DNA of 64,000 nucleotides from assembly GCF_026191915.1 (NCBI RefSeq), contig NZ_JAIMBY010000011.1, forward strand, positions 1-64,000, given 5' to 3'. The notes beneath the pieces are model-generated. The model searched no databases. It was not told the origin of the DNA and saw only the letters and a program-made list of their open reading frames with translations. The translations under genes were made by a program, and so were the position numbers. The first letter of the stretch is position 1. Each line of letters starts with the position of its first letter. Shown in pieces: positions 3,393 through 9,892 of this stretch. Origin of the DNA: Acidiphilium sp. PA (lineage in GTDB: Bacteria; Pseudomonadota; Alphaproteobacteria; Acetobacterales; Acetobacteraceae).

Positions 3393-4834
3393 TTAAGCGG
3401 CCATAGATAGAGTCTGGAAGAGTCGATTTACCAACTTGGTTGATATTGTGATGGTTTCGCCCGGTTGCCGGGACGTGGATAAATTCGGCAGTGCCCACAA
3501 TACGCGACGGACGGCGGCAATGGCATCGCTGAATGTCGGCTCGCGTTTGCAGTACCAGGCGGCAGCGTTTGGCCGCACGGCAGTGTTCGTTGTGCGCGCC
3601 AATTCGTCCGCCCACACGGTGATCAGCGAGAACAGGCCGAGCAATGCTGGCGTGGTGCGCAGGATCGCCAGATCGGACCACTGACGCTGCGTCTCGACGC
3701 CAAGATGCGTGCGAACCTCTTGAAAAGTGGTCTCCACCCGCCAGCGTGAGACGAACCAGCCAAGGATCGCAGCTGGGGTCGCGTCCAGGTCGGTGCTGAG
3801 AAAAGCCGATGGTTCATGGGCGCCGGACGGGTCGCGGACCAGCACCCAGCGGATCGGCACCGGCGGCTGCCCGGCATGGTACCAAACCGCGGTGCCGGTA
3901 GCGACCAGCAGCGTGCGCTGCTGGGCATTATACCATTGGGACACAACCAGACTGGTCCAGGTAGTCTTTTTGCTCTTCAACACCTTACCCAATTTGGGTA
4001 AGGCAGCACCCTTCATGGGGGGCCGGCCACGCTGGGCCGGCCGGCGCCGGGGTGCGGGCCGGAATAGATTGGCATCCAGCCGCAGCCGGGTGATCATACA
4101 GACATGGCGCCGAACACCTGACAGCAGGTCGAGTGCGGCAAAACCGCTGTCGGCGACAACAACAATGCGGCGTTCGGGCAGCCAGCGTCTGGTTTGCAGG
4201 ATCGCCTGACGCCCCTCCGCTGGCATTCCAATGGCTTCGCCAATGGAACCTTTGCCAGCTTCGCCCAGGTGGTCAGCGTCTTATGGCGTTTGGCATGCGT
4301 CTGGCTCCACCGCGCGGAGGGCGCAAGGATGGTCAGGAACGGTAGCGCCCAAGTCCGGCCGGCCCAGGGTATCGGCACCGCCACCATCAAAGAAAGCCAG
4401 CGCAGGCCGCTGGTTTTGACAAAGTGCCCCTTGGAGGATCGCACCGGATCACGATAAATCCCGCGCGCCTTGATTTGTGCGCCCCAGCGGCGTTCGATGG
4501 TATCGTCGATGCCGATCACCACCTCACCCGCGGGCAATAGCCGCTCGATGATATAAAGCAGCAGCCTGCGCGCTATGGCGCGTGCATCCCATCGTGCCCG
4601 GCTGAGAACTTCGTGGTAGCGGCGGAAATGTTGGTCATCCGCGAGCCCCATCACGCGCAGCACCTGGGTGACGGTTCGCTGGCCTGGCGCCAGCACCGCA
4701 CCTGCCACCAGAACGAGAACGCGGTTCCAGACCGGGGCGGTAAAGCAGGAGCGAAAGACGGAGAGCCAGGCCGCCAGGATCGGCGGAACCAACTGTGGGT
4801 CGGGCGCGGCGGTGCCGGGATGATGCGATTCCAT
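3393..4834 (-). pseudogene. IS701/IS4-like DDE transposase, frameshifted
   Basis: The N-terminal part starts at 4834. It contains VVIGIDDTIERRWG (first catalytic Asp) and RSSKGHFVKTSGLRWLSLMV, and it leaves frame near 4215. The C-terminal part, in another frame, resumes at RQAILQTRRWLPERR and contains VVVADSGFAALDLL (second Asp) and WFVSRWRVETTFQEVRTHLG (the Glu region). The two frames overlap at 4094-4226. The junction holds a near-perfect inverted repeat (TTCCAATGGC, 3-base loop, GCCAATGGAA), so either an indel or recoding is possible. An indel is the simpler reading, because the extra segment between the two parts is not typical of the family. Confidence 0.75.
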
Positions 4835-4874: not shown

Positions 4875-5201
4875 TTGAACGGCCGCTACATCAGACCGCA
4901 GGTGCTTATCATGCCCCAAATGGCCGATCCCGTCATCGCTCGTATCGAAAGCTTTCAGTGTCGCCGCGGCCGTCTACACGCCGAACGCCGCAACCGGGGC
5001 TACACGCTCTATCGCGCCGGCTCTGGCGCGCTGGTGGCGCGACTTCGGCTAACCAGCCGTGATGGTCGTCTCGAGGTGCTCTATTGGTCGCTATGGAAAG
5101 AACGTTGGTCCAGCGCAGGACCGTTCGGCCGAACCACGCTCCCCCTCGAAGACGCCCTACAGTTCATCGCTTCAGAAGATATATTTTGGGCTATCCGATA
5201 G
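4875..5201 (+). CDS. Unknown passenger protein of the IS701-like element
   Basis: This ORF of up to 108 residues is divergent from the transposase and ends 18 bp before the right inverted repeat, so it travels with the IS. Starts at 4875, 4911 and 4920 are all possible; the conserved-looking core begins at ADPVIARIESFQCRRG. It is rich in Arg and aromatic residues, with no signal peptide or membrane segment. The motif YWSLWKERWSSAGPFG and the tail LEDALQFIASEDIFWAI suggest a small folded cytosolic protein. I recognise no family with certainty; a DUF3024-like fold is only a guess. A role in transposition is possible. Confidence 0.5.
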   Translation: MNGRYIRPQVLIMPQMADPVIARIESFQCRRGRLHAERRNRGYTLYRAGSGALVARLRLTSRDGRLEVLYWSLWKERWSSAGPFGRTTLPLEDALQFIASEDIFWAIR

Positions 5202-5241
5202 CATCAGCCGCCCAAAAATGCGGAAAGTCGAGCTCAGCTAC

Positions 5242-5249
5242 TGCTGAGG
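5242..5249. repeat. 8-bp target-site duplication of IS66 element (left copy)
   Basis: TGCTGAGG directly precedes the left inverted repeat at 5250 and recurs at 9492-9499 directly after the right repeat. IS66-family elements make 8-bp duplications, so this fixes the element boundaries. Confidence 0.9.
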
Positions 5250-5359
5250 GTAACCGTTCACACCCCCCTGTCTTGCCTGGAACAGCGCGTTAGCGGGTGA
5301 TCGATAGGACGGCGCAATAGGGGCTTGCGTTTCTATCCGAATCGGATTCCAGGATTCTG

Positions 5360-6694
5360 ATGCTGCGTCAGAGAATCCCCGGCCTGAAAGACATCAAACG
5401 GACTGATTTGTCCGCGATGTCGCGCGCCGAGCTTGAAGAACTGACCTGGGATTTGCACGAATTGGCGCGAACTCTGGCAAACCGTGCCGGCAAAGATTCA
5501 ACAACCAGTTCCCGTCCGCCTTCCAGCGATAATCCCTACCGGCGTGACGGCAAGCGCGAGCAAAGTGCAGACCAGTCCGACCGGGACGATGACGCCGGTG
5601 GGGGTGGTTCTGCGCCGGGCGGCAACACGTCCAGGGGTAACCCTGGACCAAAGCCGGCTGGCAAACGACCTGGAACGAAAGGGTTCTGGCGCCGGTTGCC
5701 GATTATGGTCAGCGGTGAAGTCCTGCACGCACCGAAGGCGTGCGACGCATGCCATGCAGTCTTTGGATCCACTGTCGCGCAAAGCCGCCACGTCAGCGCC
5801 CATCTGAACTTTGAGCTCACCCGCGGCGATATGAACCTTCATGTCGCAGCTACAAAACATTCCTATCTGGCGATACGCTGCGACTACGGTCACGAGACGA
5901 TCGCACGTCCTGCGAGCGGACTGTGCTCGCACGTCGAGGGGCGACGGCGCGATCTGCAGATGAGCGAACGATGCCTTGTCGGCCCGATGCTCGCCACGTT
6001 CATTGCGGCGCTGTCGCTGCGTTTCCGGCTCTCGCGCGTCAAGATCGCCGAATTCCTGGTTGATTGGCTGGGCGTTGAGCTCGGTGTTGCCACCATCGAA
6101 CGCTGCATCCACGAATTCGGTCTGGCAAGCGAACCCGTGGTCGAGCAACTGATCGAAGAGGTGCGTGCGGCCGAAATTGTGCATCTCGACGAAACGCCGT
6201 GGTATCAGAAGGCAACCCTATTGTGGCTCTGGGTTGCAGTGACGGCGACCACCATCGTCTATCGGATCGGCAGCCGCAAGCATTGCGAACTCGCAGCACT
6301 GGTCGGCGATGCCTTCCTGGGTTGGCTGGTCACCGACGGGTATGGCGCCTATCGCGATCATCCGCGCCGCCAGCGTTGCCCGGCGCACTTGATCCGCAAG
6401 GCCCGCGCGCTGGCAGTGGGGCATTACGGCGCGGGATCGGGCTTCGGCCGCGATCTGGTGCGCGATCTACGCCGCTTGATCGAGCGCGTGCATGACGGGG
6501 ATGACCCCGCAGCCATCAAGCGACTGATCGCGGGTATCAAATGGAACTGTCAATGTAACCGCCATGAGGTCGATACCAAGGTGCGCGGGCTGGCCGGCGA
6601 AATCCTCAATGACTGGGACGCCGTGATCGCCTTCGTCGCCGATCCGGACCTGCCGCCCACCAACAATGATGCCGAACGCGCGCTCCGCCACGCG
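5360..6694 (+). pseudogene. tnpC: IS66-family transposase TnpC, 5' part
   Basis: It begins MLRQRIPGLKDIKRTDL and has the usual IS66 N-terminal block with the NSSRPPSSDNP-like motif (TTSSRPPSSDNPYRRDG). The zinc-binding segment follows (CDACHAVF). The DDE core includes VHLDETPWYQKA (first Asp), WLVTDGYGAYRD (second Asp) and PPTNNDAERALRHA (Glu region). Normal sequence stops at RHA, at about 6694. The frame stays open far beyond this (to 9040), but that part reads the antisense of the recombinase gene. The missing C-terminus is at 9279-9470. Confidence 0.9.
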
Positions 6695-6724
6695 GTCACG
6701 ACCGATTCATACTGCACCTCATCT

Positions 6725-8794
6725 TCAAATGGCGGAAAACAGCGACATTTGCCCATCGTCCTTGATGCGACACGGGCCCCTGTCACGCGGGAAGCTTGTT
6801 ACCTGTGCGCTTTCCAGATCGGCTGCCCTGATTTGATGCGGAGCATCGGGCATGACCTGTTCGGTAGGGAGGACGCCTGCCTTGATCAGCCGACGAATAC
6901 GATGTGGGGAGACCCCGAGCTTCTTCGCCGCTTCGGTCAGTGTAAGCCATTCCCCGCTTTTCTCGGCAGACCGATAGCCTTGGATTTTGTGGACGGTGCG
7001 CAACGACCCGACGCGGCGTGCCGTCCACGTTTTACCATGCCCGGTTTGCATACCCATGCGGTTGAGAGTGGCGGCAATGTCGGCGTCGGACCATCGGGTG
7101 GCCATAGATCGCATAACGGCGAGAGCGGCTTCCGGAGTGCTTTGACCGTGCTCTCCGGGTTTGGGTCTACGGACACGCAGCTGCGAGTGCTGACCGCCTT
7201 TCCAGTGGATGGTCAGAATAACCTCGCGCTGTGCTTCGTCGACGTCAGCGATGATGTCAGTGATGAGCGCACGCAGCAGTTGCTGACGACAGCGCATGTC
7301 GACCTTGGGCGCCCGCCATGCGGCTTCGAGGTCGGCTGCGATGCCGACAAAATCAGGAACCGGTGCAGCGAGGTTGAGTTGTCGCGCTTCGACCAGACGT
7401 GCCTCGCAGTCGGCCACCCGCCTGAGGGCTCCTTCCCAGCTCTTCTCAAGTTGCGCGGCAATCAGCCTGTTGTCGGGGTCGCAGGCGGCGTAGCGACGCT
7501 CGGCAAGAGATGCTTCGTAGCGAGCCTGTTGCAGGTCGAGATCGACCATGCGGCGTCGCTCGTCGCAGTTATTTTTATGCATCCGCTCAGCTTCCATGGC
7601 GGCCTCGATCGCCATTGGTGTGACCGCCCTCATTATCTCGCGGCCAATGGCTGGATCGATGCGGGAGGCGCCGAAGGTCATGCATCGCGGTTTAGCCAAC
7701 ATCTGGTTGATGCGTTCACAGCGATAGTAAGGATGTCCTGGTGTTCGCCCAGAATAGACGACGCCCAATCGCCGTCCGCACCGCCCACACGTGAGAAGGC
7801 CCGCAAGCAACGCCCGCCCACCGCGGCCCGATTTGACGCCGCCCTTCTGCCCGAAAGCATTGACGGCGATGTGCGCCTGGTTCTTCTCGAACTCGTCCCA
7901 CTCAATATAGCCTGCATGGTGATCCTTCAGCAGCACATCCCATTTCCCGAAAGGCTTGCTGTGGCCGTAACTCTTGCGAGCCCGGCCATCAACAATCTCT
8001 GTTCGCTTCTCGCTTTTACCATAGACGTAAACACCCGCGTAGAACGGGTTCTTGAGGATCGAAATGACGTTGCGATAGCGGACTGGCACCCAATCGAACG
8101 AGACAGTCTGGCGCCCGTCGGACGGGCGCGGAAAATCGAAATGTTCCGCAGTCAGCGAGATCAGCACCCGACGCGCACTGCCAAGCTCGCGGAAGCGAGT
8201 AAAAATGAGACGGATCGCCTCCTGGACCCGAAGGTCAGGGTCGAGCCCCAAGCCATAATCCCGGTGCCAGACGTAGCCGATCGGAACGCTCAACCGCAAT
8301 TCGCCACGTCCGGCCTTGGCGCGGGCAGCGTCGAGCATACGGCTCCGCAAAATGCCCAGTTCGAACTCGCTGATACTACCCTTCATGCCCAACAACAGGC
8401 GATCGTTGGGTCTGCAGGGGTCGTACACGCCGTCAAGGTCGATGACGCGGGCCTCGACCAGCCCGCACAGCTCCAGAAGATGGTGCCAGTCCCGGCCGTT
8501 GCGAGAAAGCCTGGACGCGTCGCAGCAGATGACTGCCCCGAACTTGCCGGTGCACAAATCACCTACCAATCGCTCAAAACCCGGGCGCTCCATCGTACCG
8601 CTTGCGGTTCGACCAAGATCATCGTCGATTACTTCAACGTCGCTGAACCCCCAGCGACGAGCTACGTCGACGAGTTCATATTGCCTCCGCTTGCTTTCGA
8701 GGTTGTTTTGGACCTGCGCCTGGGTCGATTGGCGAACATACACCACGGCTTTGCGCTTCAGCACCGCGACCGGCAGCAGTTCACTGCTCGTCAT
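6725..8794 (-). CDS. Large serine recombinase
   Basis: This 689-residue site-specific recombinase is the probable mover of the element around it. The N-terminal resolvase domain (about 12-160) has the catalytic Ser in AVVYVRQSTQAQ and the conserved CDASRLSRNGRDW block. The recombinase domain (about 190-330) includes ILKNPFYAGVYVYGK. The zinc ribbon (about 345-390) has TCGRCGRRL and YYRC. A helical region with an acidic/basic coiled-coil character follows, and a C-terminal helix-turn-helix-like segment (LTLTEAAKKLGVSPHRIRRL) ends the protein. Its start overlaps the stop of the small ORF upstream by 14 bp, indicating translational coupling. It ends 33 bp from the left boundary of the insert. 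Confidence 0.9.
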   Translation of the reverse strand: MTSSELLPVAVLKRKAVVYVRQSTQAQVQNNLESKRRQYELVDVARRWGFSDVEVIDDDLGRTASGTMERPGFERLVGDLCTGKFGAVICCDASRLSRNGRDWHHLLELCGLVEARVIDLDGVYDPCRPNDRLLLGMKGSISEFELGILRSRMLDAARAKAGRGELRLSVPIGYVWHRDYGLGLDPDLRVQEAIRLIFTRFRELGSARRVLISLTAEHFDFPRPSDGRQTVSFDWVPVRYRNVISILKNPFYAGVYVYGKSEKRTEIVDGRARKSYGHSKPFGKWDVLLKDHHAGYIEWDEFEKNQAHIAVNAFGQKGGVKSGRGGRALLAGLLTCGRCGRRLGVVYSGRTPGHPYYRCERINQMLAKPRCMTFGASRIDPAIGREIMRAVTPMAIEAAMEAERMHKNNCDERRRMVDLDLQQARYEASLAERRYAACDPDNRLIAAQLEKSWEGALRRVADCEARLVEARQLNLAAPVPDFVGIAADLEAAWRAPKVDMRCRQQLLRALITDIIADVDEAQREVILTIHWKGGQHSQLRVRRPKPGEHGQSTPEAALAVMRSMATRWSDADIAATLNRMGMQTGHGKTWTARRVGSLRTVHKIQGYRSAEKSGEWLTLTEAAKKLGVSPHRIRRLIKAGVLPTEQVMPDAPHQIRAADLESAQVTSFPRDRGPCRIKDDGQMSLFSAI

Positions 8795-8966
8795 CGCTGG
8801 TCTCCTCGGTTACGACGCCGGCGGCCGCCATCAGGAGCGTCGCTAGTCGGGCGACCGCGAAACCCCGCTCCGTCAGGCTTAGTCCCCGCAGCTCGGGCAT
8901 GTCGAGCGACATGCTCAACTGACGGGGCTGCATCATCTGCTTCAAAGGTAGTCGTAGGGCTTTCAT
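8781..8966 (-). CDS. Small recombinase-associated protein
   Basis: This ORF of about 61 residues starts MKALRLPLKQMMQPRQL with a strong ribosome binding site (AGGAGG, 6 bp upstream). It contains LTERGFAVARLATLLMAAAG and an acidic tail ending DDEQ. The stop overlaps the recombinase start, so the two are coupled. The function is unknown. The position suggests a directionality or accessory factor, but nothing in the sequence shows that. An earlier in-frame ATG at 8996 lacks a good ribosome site. Confidence 0.6.
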   Translation of the reverse strand: MKALRLPLKQMMQPRQLSMSLDMPELRGLSLTERGFAVARLATLLMAAAGVVTEETSDDEQ

Positions 8967-9114
8967 CGTGCGCCTCCTGGATGGAATCGAGTCCATCCAT
9001 GGTAGTTTGCCTGAAACCGAACTGGGTCAGCAGCCTGTGAAGCTCTAAAAGACCCGAAACTGCTACCAGCGGTTCGCCCATCTCCATATTCGCGCAAAGC
9101 ACTCGGTCCAGCAT
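8791..9114 (-). CDS. Possible first gene of the recombinase operon (unknown)
   Basis: From the ATG at 9114 the protein begins MLDRVLCANMEMGEPLVAV and continues with LLELHRLLTQFGF. The same frame stays open upstream across the element edge and encodes HYRWHPYYGGRF and VRVEIKLGEVIQVPAWM, which looks like real protein (a DUF5372-like small protein of recombinase operons is a guess). No ATG, GTG or TTG start was seen in that extension, so the start may be lost or non-canonical. Its 3' half overlaps the next ORF in another frame and is probably not coding. Confidence 0.4.
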   Translation of the reverse strand: MLDRVLCANMEMGEPLVAVSGLLELHRLLTQFGFRQTTMDGLDSIQEAHDESPTTTFEADDAAPSVEHVARHARAAGTKPDGAGFRGRPTSDAPDGGRRRRNRGDQR

Positions 9115-9278
9115 CCACGCCGGAACCTGGATGACCTCGCCGAGCTTGATCTCGACCCGGACGATCGTCCCATTGGCTCGCTCTTCGTGCCCCTCATGCC
9201 GGAATCGCCCACCATAATAGGGGTGCCACCGGTAATGAAACTCTACGAGCTGCCCGACATGGGTAGAATGACCCTGCG

Positions 9279-9470
9279 ATTGCGATCTCCAGGCGCATCA
9301 GCTTCGGCACGCGATCCGATGAAGGAAGCCGGTTCTATGCGGCTGCGCTCAGCGTCATTGACACCTGCCGCAAGCGCCGCACGGATCCATGGGCCTATGC
9401 CTACGCCCTCATCACCGCCGCTCGCTCTAACAATCTGCTGCCCACCATCCCTGCCCAGGTAGCGATCTGA
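9279..9470 (+). pseudogene. tnpC: IS66-family transposase TnpC, 3' part
   Basis: The C-terminal segment of tnpC resumes after the recombinase element. It reads IAISRRISFGTRSDEGSRFY, then AALSVIDTCRKR, DPWAYAYALITAAR and NNLLPTIPAQ, to a stop at 9470. These are the standard final motifs of IS66 transposases. Joined after RHA at 6694, the protein would be about 510 residues, the normal IS66 length. Confidence 0.9.
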
Positions 9471-9487
9471 CAGGGGGGTGTGAACGG

Positions 9488-9892
9488 TTACTGCTGAGGT
9501 GAAAATGACGACAGTATTCGGCAACAGCTCACTCGGCCTCCGGCGCAGTCATTAATAACAGCAGCGAGATCTTGTCGCAGCGCCATCAGAGTGGCAATTC
9601 TATTGTCGAGTTCGATTAGGCGGACATTTGCAATTGTCGCAACATCGGCGCAATCCTCCCCATCTTTTGCTGCGAGATCCGCTAAATTCCGCACAACTTC
9701 GAGGCTGAACCCCAAATCGCGGCAGCGTCGGATGAAACGAAGCCTTGCCAGATGATCGTCACCATAAAGGCGATAATTGTCAGCACTGCGGTTAGGCGCT
9801 GGCAGCAAGCCGATTTGTTCATACCAGCGGATAGTCTGGCGGGTTGCGCCAGTCAGCCGCGCCAAGGCGCCAACGGTTAAGAGAGCTTCCAT
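9488..9892 (-). CDS. MerR-family metal-responsive regulator
   Basis: This is a 134-residue MerR-type activator. The N-terminal helix-turn-helix reads VGALARLTGATRQTIRWYE, then IGLLPAPNRSADNYRLYGDD, then a dimerisation helix. Cysteines fit a metal sensor: one in GEDCADV (like Cys79 of ZntR/PbrR) and a C-terminal loop C-AGGRVSC-C (C-x7-C spacing as in CueR, with an extra adjacent Cys). Zn, Cd, Pb or Cu are possible ligands. The IS66 element entered its last codons but left the same ending (SPQQ stop), so it should be intact. It is divergent from the TonB receptor. Confidence 0.8.
   Translation of the reverse strand: MEALLTVGALARLTGATRQTIRWYEQIGLLPAPNRSADNYRLYGDDHLARLRFIRRCRDLGFSLEVVRNLADLAAKDGEDCADVATIANVRLIELDNRIATLMALRQDLAAVINDCAGGRVSCCRILSSFSPQQ

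Follow-up and report, generated by a model that had tools for sequence, protein, structure and literature searches.

A minimal serine recombinase element in IS66 transposase genes, with a probably circle-gated operon

In the 64,000-nucleotide stretch of Acidiphilium sp. PA analyzed here (contig NZ_JAIMBY010000011.1, positions 1 to 64,000; hereafter the window), the transposase gene tnpC of an IS66 insertion sequence is split by a second mobile element, which encodes a large serine recombinase (LSR) and two small overlapping open reading frames (ORF1 and ORF2), all antisense to tnpC. We consider it probable that this is a minimal, self-moving ORF1-ORF2-LSR element of about 2.6 kb that targets tnpC and whose operon is gated by circularization. 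The exact joint and its empty site, the repeated target codon, the two orientations, independent movement and the in-frame circle joint are shown by sequence comparison; from these we infer the existence of the circle, the dependence of expression on it and the role of the recombinase in moving the element. An initial annotation of this DNA had proposed a serine recombinase element that targets the conserved IS66 transposase gene, which is borne out by the recurrence of one target codon and by the finding of an empty site; its description of a large serine recombinase plus two small frames within tnpC agrees with the Pfam domains and the open frames. The element and its target are laid out as follows.

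5360-6696, plus strand: 5' part of IS66 tnpC, including the GT core (Pfam DDE_Tnp_IS66; empty site)
6695-6696, plus strand: left core dinucleotide GT, as in the empty site
6697-9283, minus strand: inserted serine recombinase element, 2,587 bp (empty site)
6707-6715, minus strand: attP dyad arm GCAGTATGA
6708-6710, minus strand: ATG 14 nt within the element end, pointing outward and in frame with ORF1 in the circular form
6717-6720, minus strand: GAGG, Shine-Dalgarno-like, 6 nt upstream of the outward ATG (sequence)
6725-8794, minus strand: large serine recombinase, 689 amino acids
8781-8996, minus strand: ORF2, 71 amino acids, overlapping the recombinase start (no Pfam or NCBIfam match)
8791-9283, minus strand: ORF1, normal start codon absent when integrated; conserved domain of about 90 residues, predicted SH3-like barrel
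9263-9271, minus strand: attP dyad arm TCATTCTAC
9282-9283, plus strand: right core dinucleotide GC
9284-9470, plus strand: 3' part of IS66 tnpC, to the stop codon (empty site)

The joint was defined by uninterrupted IS66 copies in a genome of the same genus (G011), which holds eight of them, seven identical with an open frame of 534 amino acids and one partial, all about 90% identical in protein to the IS66 of the window. Aligned to this empty site, the two tnpC halves abut at 6696/9284 with no gap and no overlap, and the joined frame reads RHA-VIS-RRISFG. The joint placed at 6694/9279 by the initial annotation did rebuild the tnpC C-terminus, but it was 2 to 5 bp off and added one residue (RHA-IAIS-RR); the GCG match noted there at the ends is not the core, which consists of two bases, GT on the left and GC on the right, the empty site having GT. 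In the window, the Pfam match to DDE_Tnp_IS66 covers 5360-6694, and in a whole-genome Pfam scan it stops at profile position 268 of 284.

The same codon is split in close relatives. One genome per species was scanned, and 80 of 111 relatives were kept; the close clade, defined by recombinases at least 55% identical, comprises 73 loci plus the window, that is, 74 rows (the 80 loci minus the fragmentary L066 and minus six below 55% identity, L072, L074, L075, L076, L079 and L081, plus the window). The tnpC halves were scored with a local IS66 profile and a 40-nt rule. Both halves meet at the element ends, split at the identical codon, in 44 of the 74 rows, a positive outcome for the check named in the initial annotation; the recurrent joined motif is ...AERAxRG(I/F/V)^ALGRK(S/N)WLFAGSD..., with the target a few codons past the AER motif. 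One further row, a hybrid, carries two C-terminal halves; a single tnpC flank is present in 24 rows, and the scan detected none in five. Among the 24, the missing side is often a contig end or lost to the 40-nt rule: L010, L021, L028, L043 and L044 count as one-flank by the rule, yet tnpC was seen on the other side by a joining or profile look, while the other flank is other DNA in L027 and L065 and the left part is absent or rearranged in L018, L019 and L082. Of the five without tnpC by the scan, L078 proved to be tnpC by another look and L042 lies in a degraded tnpC, recognized by eye only. Homologues at unrelated sites, named beforehand as the observation that would count against this target, are thus nearly lacking, with three of the 74 rows outside tnpC: L029 interrupts an IS110-type transposase (PF02371), and L064 and L077 lie in DNA other than transposase genes. 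Near copies are frequent among the rows (L012-L017 represent one joint); 54 elements with both ends readable have 43 distinct joints, some of which are not clean tnpC pairs. The L012-L017 element, found in six Mesorhizobium genomes in the same tnpC, is shortened to 2,441 bp, with ORF1 partly deleted.

Elements with identical ends vary directly outside two bases, and the overlap is therefore two bases long, without a longer target duplication. Of the 44 rows, 35 have GC/GC as the core bases at their ends and four have CC/CC, with GT/GT, AC/AC, GT/GC, GC/CC and GC/AC once each, the window being the GC/AC row; we read the window as the probable product of integration of a circle with a GC core at a GT target, with GT retained at one end and GC at the other. 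Because GC is self-complementary, the element can enter either way round: 35 of the 44 insertions are antisense to tnpC and nine are sense, and L005 and L009 have one tnpC joint in common in opposite orientations. All nine sense rows are GC/GC, but they stem from four joints, so that a link between this core and sense orientation is suggestive. In 38 elements, the circular joint would form a dyad centered on the mapped core, GCAnAATGA-N10-GC-N10-TCATTnTGC, in whose arms lie the anchors that were used for locating element ends.

The evidence for gating comes from the position of the ORF1 start codon. In the integrated element of the window, no ATG, GTG or TTG occurs between the stop codon in the flank and the conserved WHP motif of ORF1, and at the opposite end, just behind the recombinase stop, stand a GAGG and an ATG, the latter 14 nt before the core. 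When the ends of the window element are joined as a circle, the sequence reads ATG AAT CGG TCG TGG CAA ..., MNRSWQSQGHSTHVGQLVEFHYRWHP..., and remains open to the recombinase start. This circle frame is open for at least 100 codons in 56 of 57 elements; with near copies removed it is open in 47 of 48, and shifting the join by one or two bases leaves 0/48 and 3/48 open. Third-position variation in ORF1 extends up to the left end of the element, a sign of coding constraint. The same start-codon arrangement was found in more distant relatives by a scan that required equal cores and tried several candidate joints per locus: seven tnpC2 loci, the istB loci L072, L100 and L129, the IS3-type loci L103 and L105 (GTG), and L002.

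Several observations weigh against circle gating. An alternative in-frame ATG, GTG or TTG precedes the conserved motif in 30 of 48 integrated copies (ATG in 19), and ORF1 may therefore still be made, slightly changed, from the integrated element. The ATG is present in 57 of 57 elements by construction, because the right end was located by a motif that contains it, and the ribosome-site pattern, seen in 53 of 57, is loose and was scored without a shuffle control. A promoter search gave no match, the circle-gene scan found no convincing circle gene in L109, L111-L115 and L135, and a search for the exact pattern of the circle joint found none in the genome itself, in 43 element-holding genomes or records or in viral contigs; such absence is expected of a rare form, yet lends no support. 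The target itself was scored with an IS66 profile built from 25 of the same joined proteins, which lends weight to an independent view: the Pfam PF03050 match ends at profile positions 267-269 in the window as well as at L003, L004, L040 and L041. These points leave some room for a plain site-specific element in tnpC, in which the far-end ATG is the start of an outward frame or part of an attP arm, ORF1 is read from an alternative codon and no gating occurs, the more so as this ATG sits in a dyad arm that would be conserved for binding anyway. We regard such an element as rather unlikely, since 18 of the 48 integrated copies, the window included, lack any in-frame ATG, GTG or TTG between the stop codon in the flank and the conserved motif to serve as the alternative that the other 30 possess, and since 47 of 48 elements preserve the reading frame over the joint, as do clades whose cores and targets differ.

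Two other explanations concern how the insert reached its place. The initial annotation had suggested that it could spread along with IS66 copies, and a recombinase that once entered tnpC could since have been copied as a passenger by IS66 transposition; the IS66 of the window indeed has intact ends and an 8-bp duplication, and pairs of tnpC and element recur unchanged across strains (L012-L017; L043/L044; L049/L050/L060). As the main route, this is already contradicted by identical elements in differing tnpC genes. In Rhizobium johnstonii 3841, three different tnpC genes, one of them degraded, each carry a copy; the copies are 100% identical over 2,583 bp and their flanks 37-56% alike, and L004 and L005, from different genera, have 100% identical elements in tnpC flanks 58% alike. 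Identical elements in different tnpC genes imply that the element moves by itself, not only along with tnpC, and its independent spread among tnpC genes is shown by these sequences; the recombinase itself would do the moving. Near-identical elements in both orientations, in tnpC genes with flanks only 37-86% alike, and the loss of the C-terminal part from the split tnpC likewise make a retained passenger improbable. Still less credible is an insert spliced from RNA or otherwise tolerated, like an IStron or intron, with tnpC still working: the reading frame is exactly restored by the joint, but an exact two-base crossover would restore it anyway, 35 of the 44 insertions are antisense to tnpC, and no Rfam family reached its gathering score in 5200-9560, for which reason an intron-like insert was rejected.

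We therefore favor a circle-gated, self-moving element, for which we propose the following mechanism. The recombinase, made mainly from the circle, would join the circular attP to a conserved stretch of tnpC through a two-base crossover, each related clade having specialized on another highly conserved codon of a mobile element. Integration would detach ORF1 from its ribosome site and ATG, left at the opposite end beside the recombinase stop, and loss of the ORF1 start would lower expression of the whole operon through its overlapping, coupled frames, so that the integrated copy is damped. Rare expression from that copy would permit excision, and excision into a circle would rejoin the ATG and ORF1 in frame, allowing the coupled operon to be fully translated.

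More distant recombinases (about 33-46% identity) lie at other conserved codons of mobile-element genes, as judged by inspection of their flanks. Pfam matches on the two sides of the element reveal a split group II intron reverse transcriptase gene at L002 (RVT_1 1-82 / 77-204), IS21 istB split at its P-loop at L072 (IstB 2-104 / 100-236) and L100 and at a second site at L113 (IstB 3-206 / 202-236), IS3-type transposases split at L104 (rve_3 2-52 / 53-67) and L105, and a tnpC split within its zinc finger at L114. A second tnpC codon, FAGS^DGG, is used by L074, L075, L076, L079 and L128. Evidence from one flank only points to IS66 tnpB as the target of L099, L101, L111, L112, L115 and L135 and to a DDE_3 transposase, which we take to be of the IS630 type, as that of L109, its second half seen by eye; L116 and L106 have one IS3 flank only, and L127 has no clean joint. 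Examples of joined target proteins are ADIRSF^FDSVDHEWLL, ALGN^SGTGKTH and RQD^YNEVRPHSAI.

In a tree of 55 recombinases, 13 target labels require 12 changes, the minimum possible, although six labels have more than one member and seven only one, the two odd targets being nested singletons. Both halves with Pfam support stand behind only the reverse transcriptase, istB (both sites), IS3 and tnpC3 examples; the tnpB label rests on one flank, the second halves of the IS630-type and IS110-type targets were recognized by eye, and L131 and L132 carry no target assignment. By these labels, the target follows the recombinase tree. We lean, with less assurance than for the element itself, toward a superfamily of tiny serine recombinase hyperparasites, each clade of which homes to one highly conserved codon of a mobile element and silences its host, all or most having the start codon of the first gene across attP and an operon assembled only in the excised circle. 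Besides three sites in IS66 tnpC and others in IS66 tnpB, the targets would comprise two places in IS21 istB (the P-loop and a second site), the YNxxRPH motif in IS3 transposases, motif A in the reverse transcriptases of group II introns, and a transposase of the IS630 type. Class-wide genome samples were sparse (7/318 genomes each), 449 plasmid records match a relative, two regions of which were inspected for their target, and no relative was found in viral contigs with the query used.

Some loci of the wider family have features of their own. L002, a second member in the genome of the window, lies on contig C13 at about 42.3-44.5 kb; its core is AA, and additional DNA separates the recombinase from the right end, before the ATG. 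L035 and L103 are hybrids with the C-terminal halves of two different target genes on their two sides, facing outward, as if two insertions of opposite orientation had recombined. L081 and L102, in two genomes with the same flanks, have a tnpC2-type recombinase in a gene of no assigned family.

The recombinase of the window has the Pfam domains Resolvase (PF00239, residues 16-165), Recombinase (PF07508, 191-309) and zinc ribbon (PF13408, 329-382), followed by a C-terminal HTH_17 match; its best match among solved sequences is YokA of SPbeta (PDB 9dxh). The order of the three domains is that of an LSR and differs from the IS607 type, in which the DNA-binding domain precedes the catalytic one. 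DUF4368 is absent from its Pfam matches, and the close clade shares one target codon, not the several unrelated targets of TndX-like LSRs. By domain order, core and an attP dyad about that core, the element is an LSR element. A reading as a defense gene was dropped, the only match being a weak one of the recombinase helix-turn-helix to a PADLOC model. Neither ORF1 nor ORF2 of the window has a Pfam or NCBIfam match, and these searches do not bear out the idea that ORF1 belongs to DUF5372; the ORF1 of L074 matches an NGR234 frame annotated DUF5372 over 10 residues only (22 bits). In pNGR234a (34.0-37.3 kb, L146), a related recombinase is part of a longer operon whose annotations are DUF5372, helix-turn-helix, transposase and recombinase. 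The predicted fold of ORF1 is confident only for about residues 10-90, where it resembles SH3-like barrels (best matches, Foldseek E 0.038; VIA Z 6.2, root-mean-square deviation 1.9, 48 aligned); since such barrels are common, no function follows, and it is our guess that ORF1 could be a directionality or DNA-binding partner.

The host IS66 spans 5250-9491 and both of its ends are complete.

5242-5249: 8-bp target duplication TGCTGAGG, left of the host IS66 (repeat comparison)
5250-5272, plus strand: left inverted repeat, 23 bp, perfect
9469-9491, minus strand: right inverted repeat, 23 bp, perfect
9492-9499: 8-bp target duplication TGCTGAGG, right of the host IS66 (repeat comparison)

Only 87 bp separate the left repeat from the tnpC start, into which tnpA and tnpB do not fit; IS66 groups with tnpC alone exist. 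The DDE_Tnp_IS66 match and the inverted repeats identify the family, as does the duplication, 8 bp being an IS66 trait according to a table in PMC3281130. The repeats, the duplication and tnpC belong to this host, and IS66 is merely the target of the inserted element. A MerR-family regulator gene (9488-9892) has the IS66 inserted at its 3' end, and the stop codon that the gene now uses arises from the IS end; directly to the left of the IS66 is a probably truncated DDE_5 transposase (4094-4834; profile 2-165 of 272).

The large serine integrases, among them those of phiC31 and Bxb1, share with the element the Resolvase-Recombinase-zinc ribbon order, the two-base crossover, the attP dyad and a target within a conserved gene. 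The element differs from them in its size of about 2.6 kb, with only two small frames beside the recombinase, in its mobile-element target, its mostly self-complementary core, its insertion in both orientations and its C-terminal HTH_17 match. Durrant et al. 2022 (PMC10083194) catalogued site-specific LSRs, among them clusters with a single conserved gene as the target of each, and these are, as far as the sections of that paper used here describe them, alike in this respect; the TndX-like multi-targeting LSRs with DUF4368 treated there are alike as small self-moving elements, in contrast to which the present element has no DUF4368 match and uses one codon rather than relaxed targets. Those sections contain neither a transposase-homing LSR clade nor a start codon split across attP, and open-access literature, a scope that leaves aside subscription papers and preprints, yielded neither IS66-targeting serine recombinases nor such a split start codon. 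An attP within a gene is familiar from SSV-type integrases and from the integration-dependent immunity of mycobacteriophages, and junction promoters from the circles of IS3 and IS21 types. In these systems, too, integration cuts a gene, and the circle restores it or switches expression; here, by contrast, an accessory frame has its start codon and ribosome site moved to the far end of a serine recombinase element.

Discussion of integrases usually centers on their entry into host genes. If our reading is true, a clade that chooses conserved codons of transposases and introns would act as a natural restraint on insertion sequences and would provide a set of enzymes with short, known, gene-internal targets, including close relatives that differ in target. 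The start codon placed across attP, if true, would let the element switch between its mobile and resident states in a very compact way.

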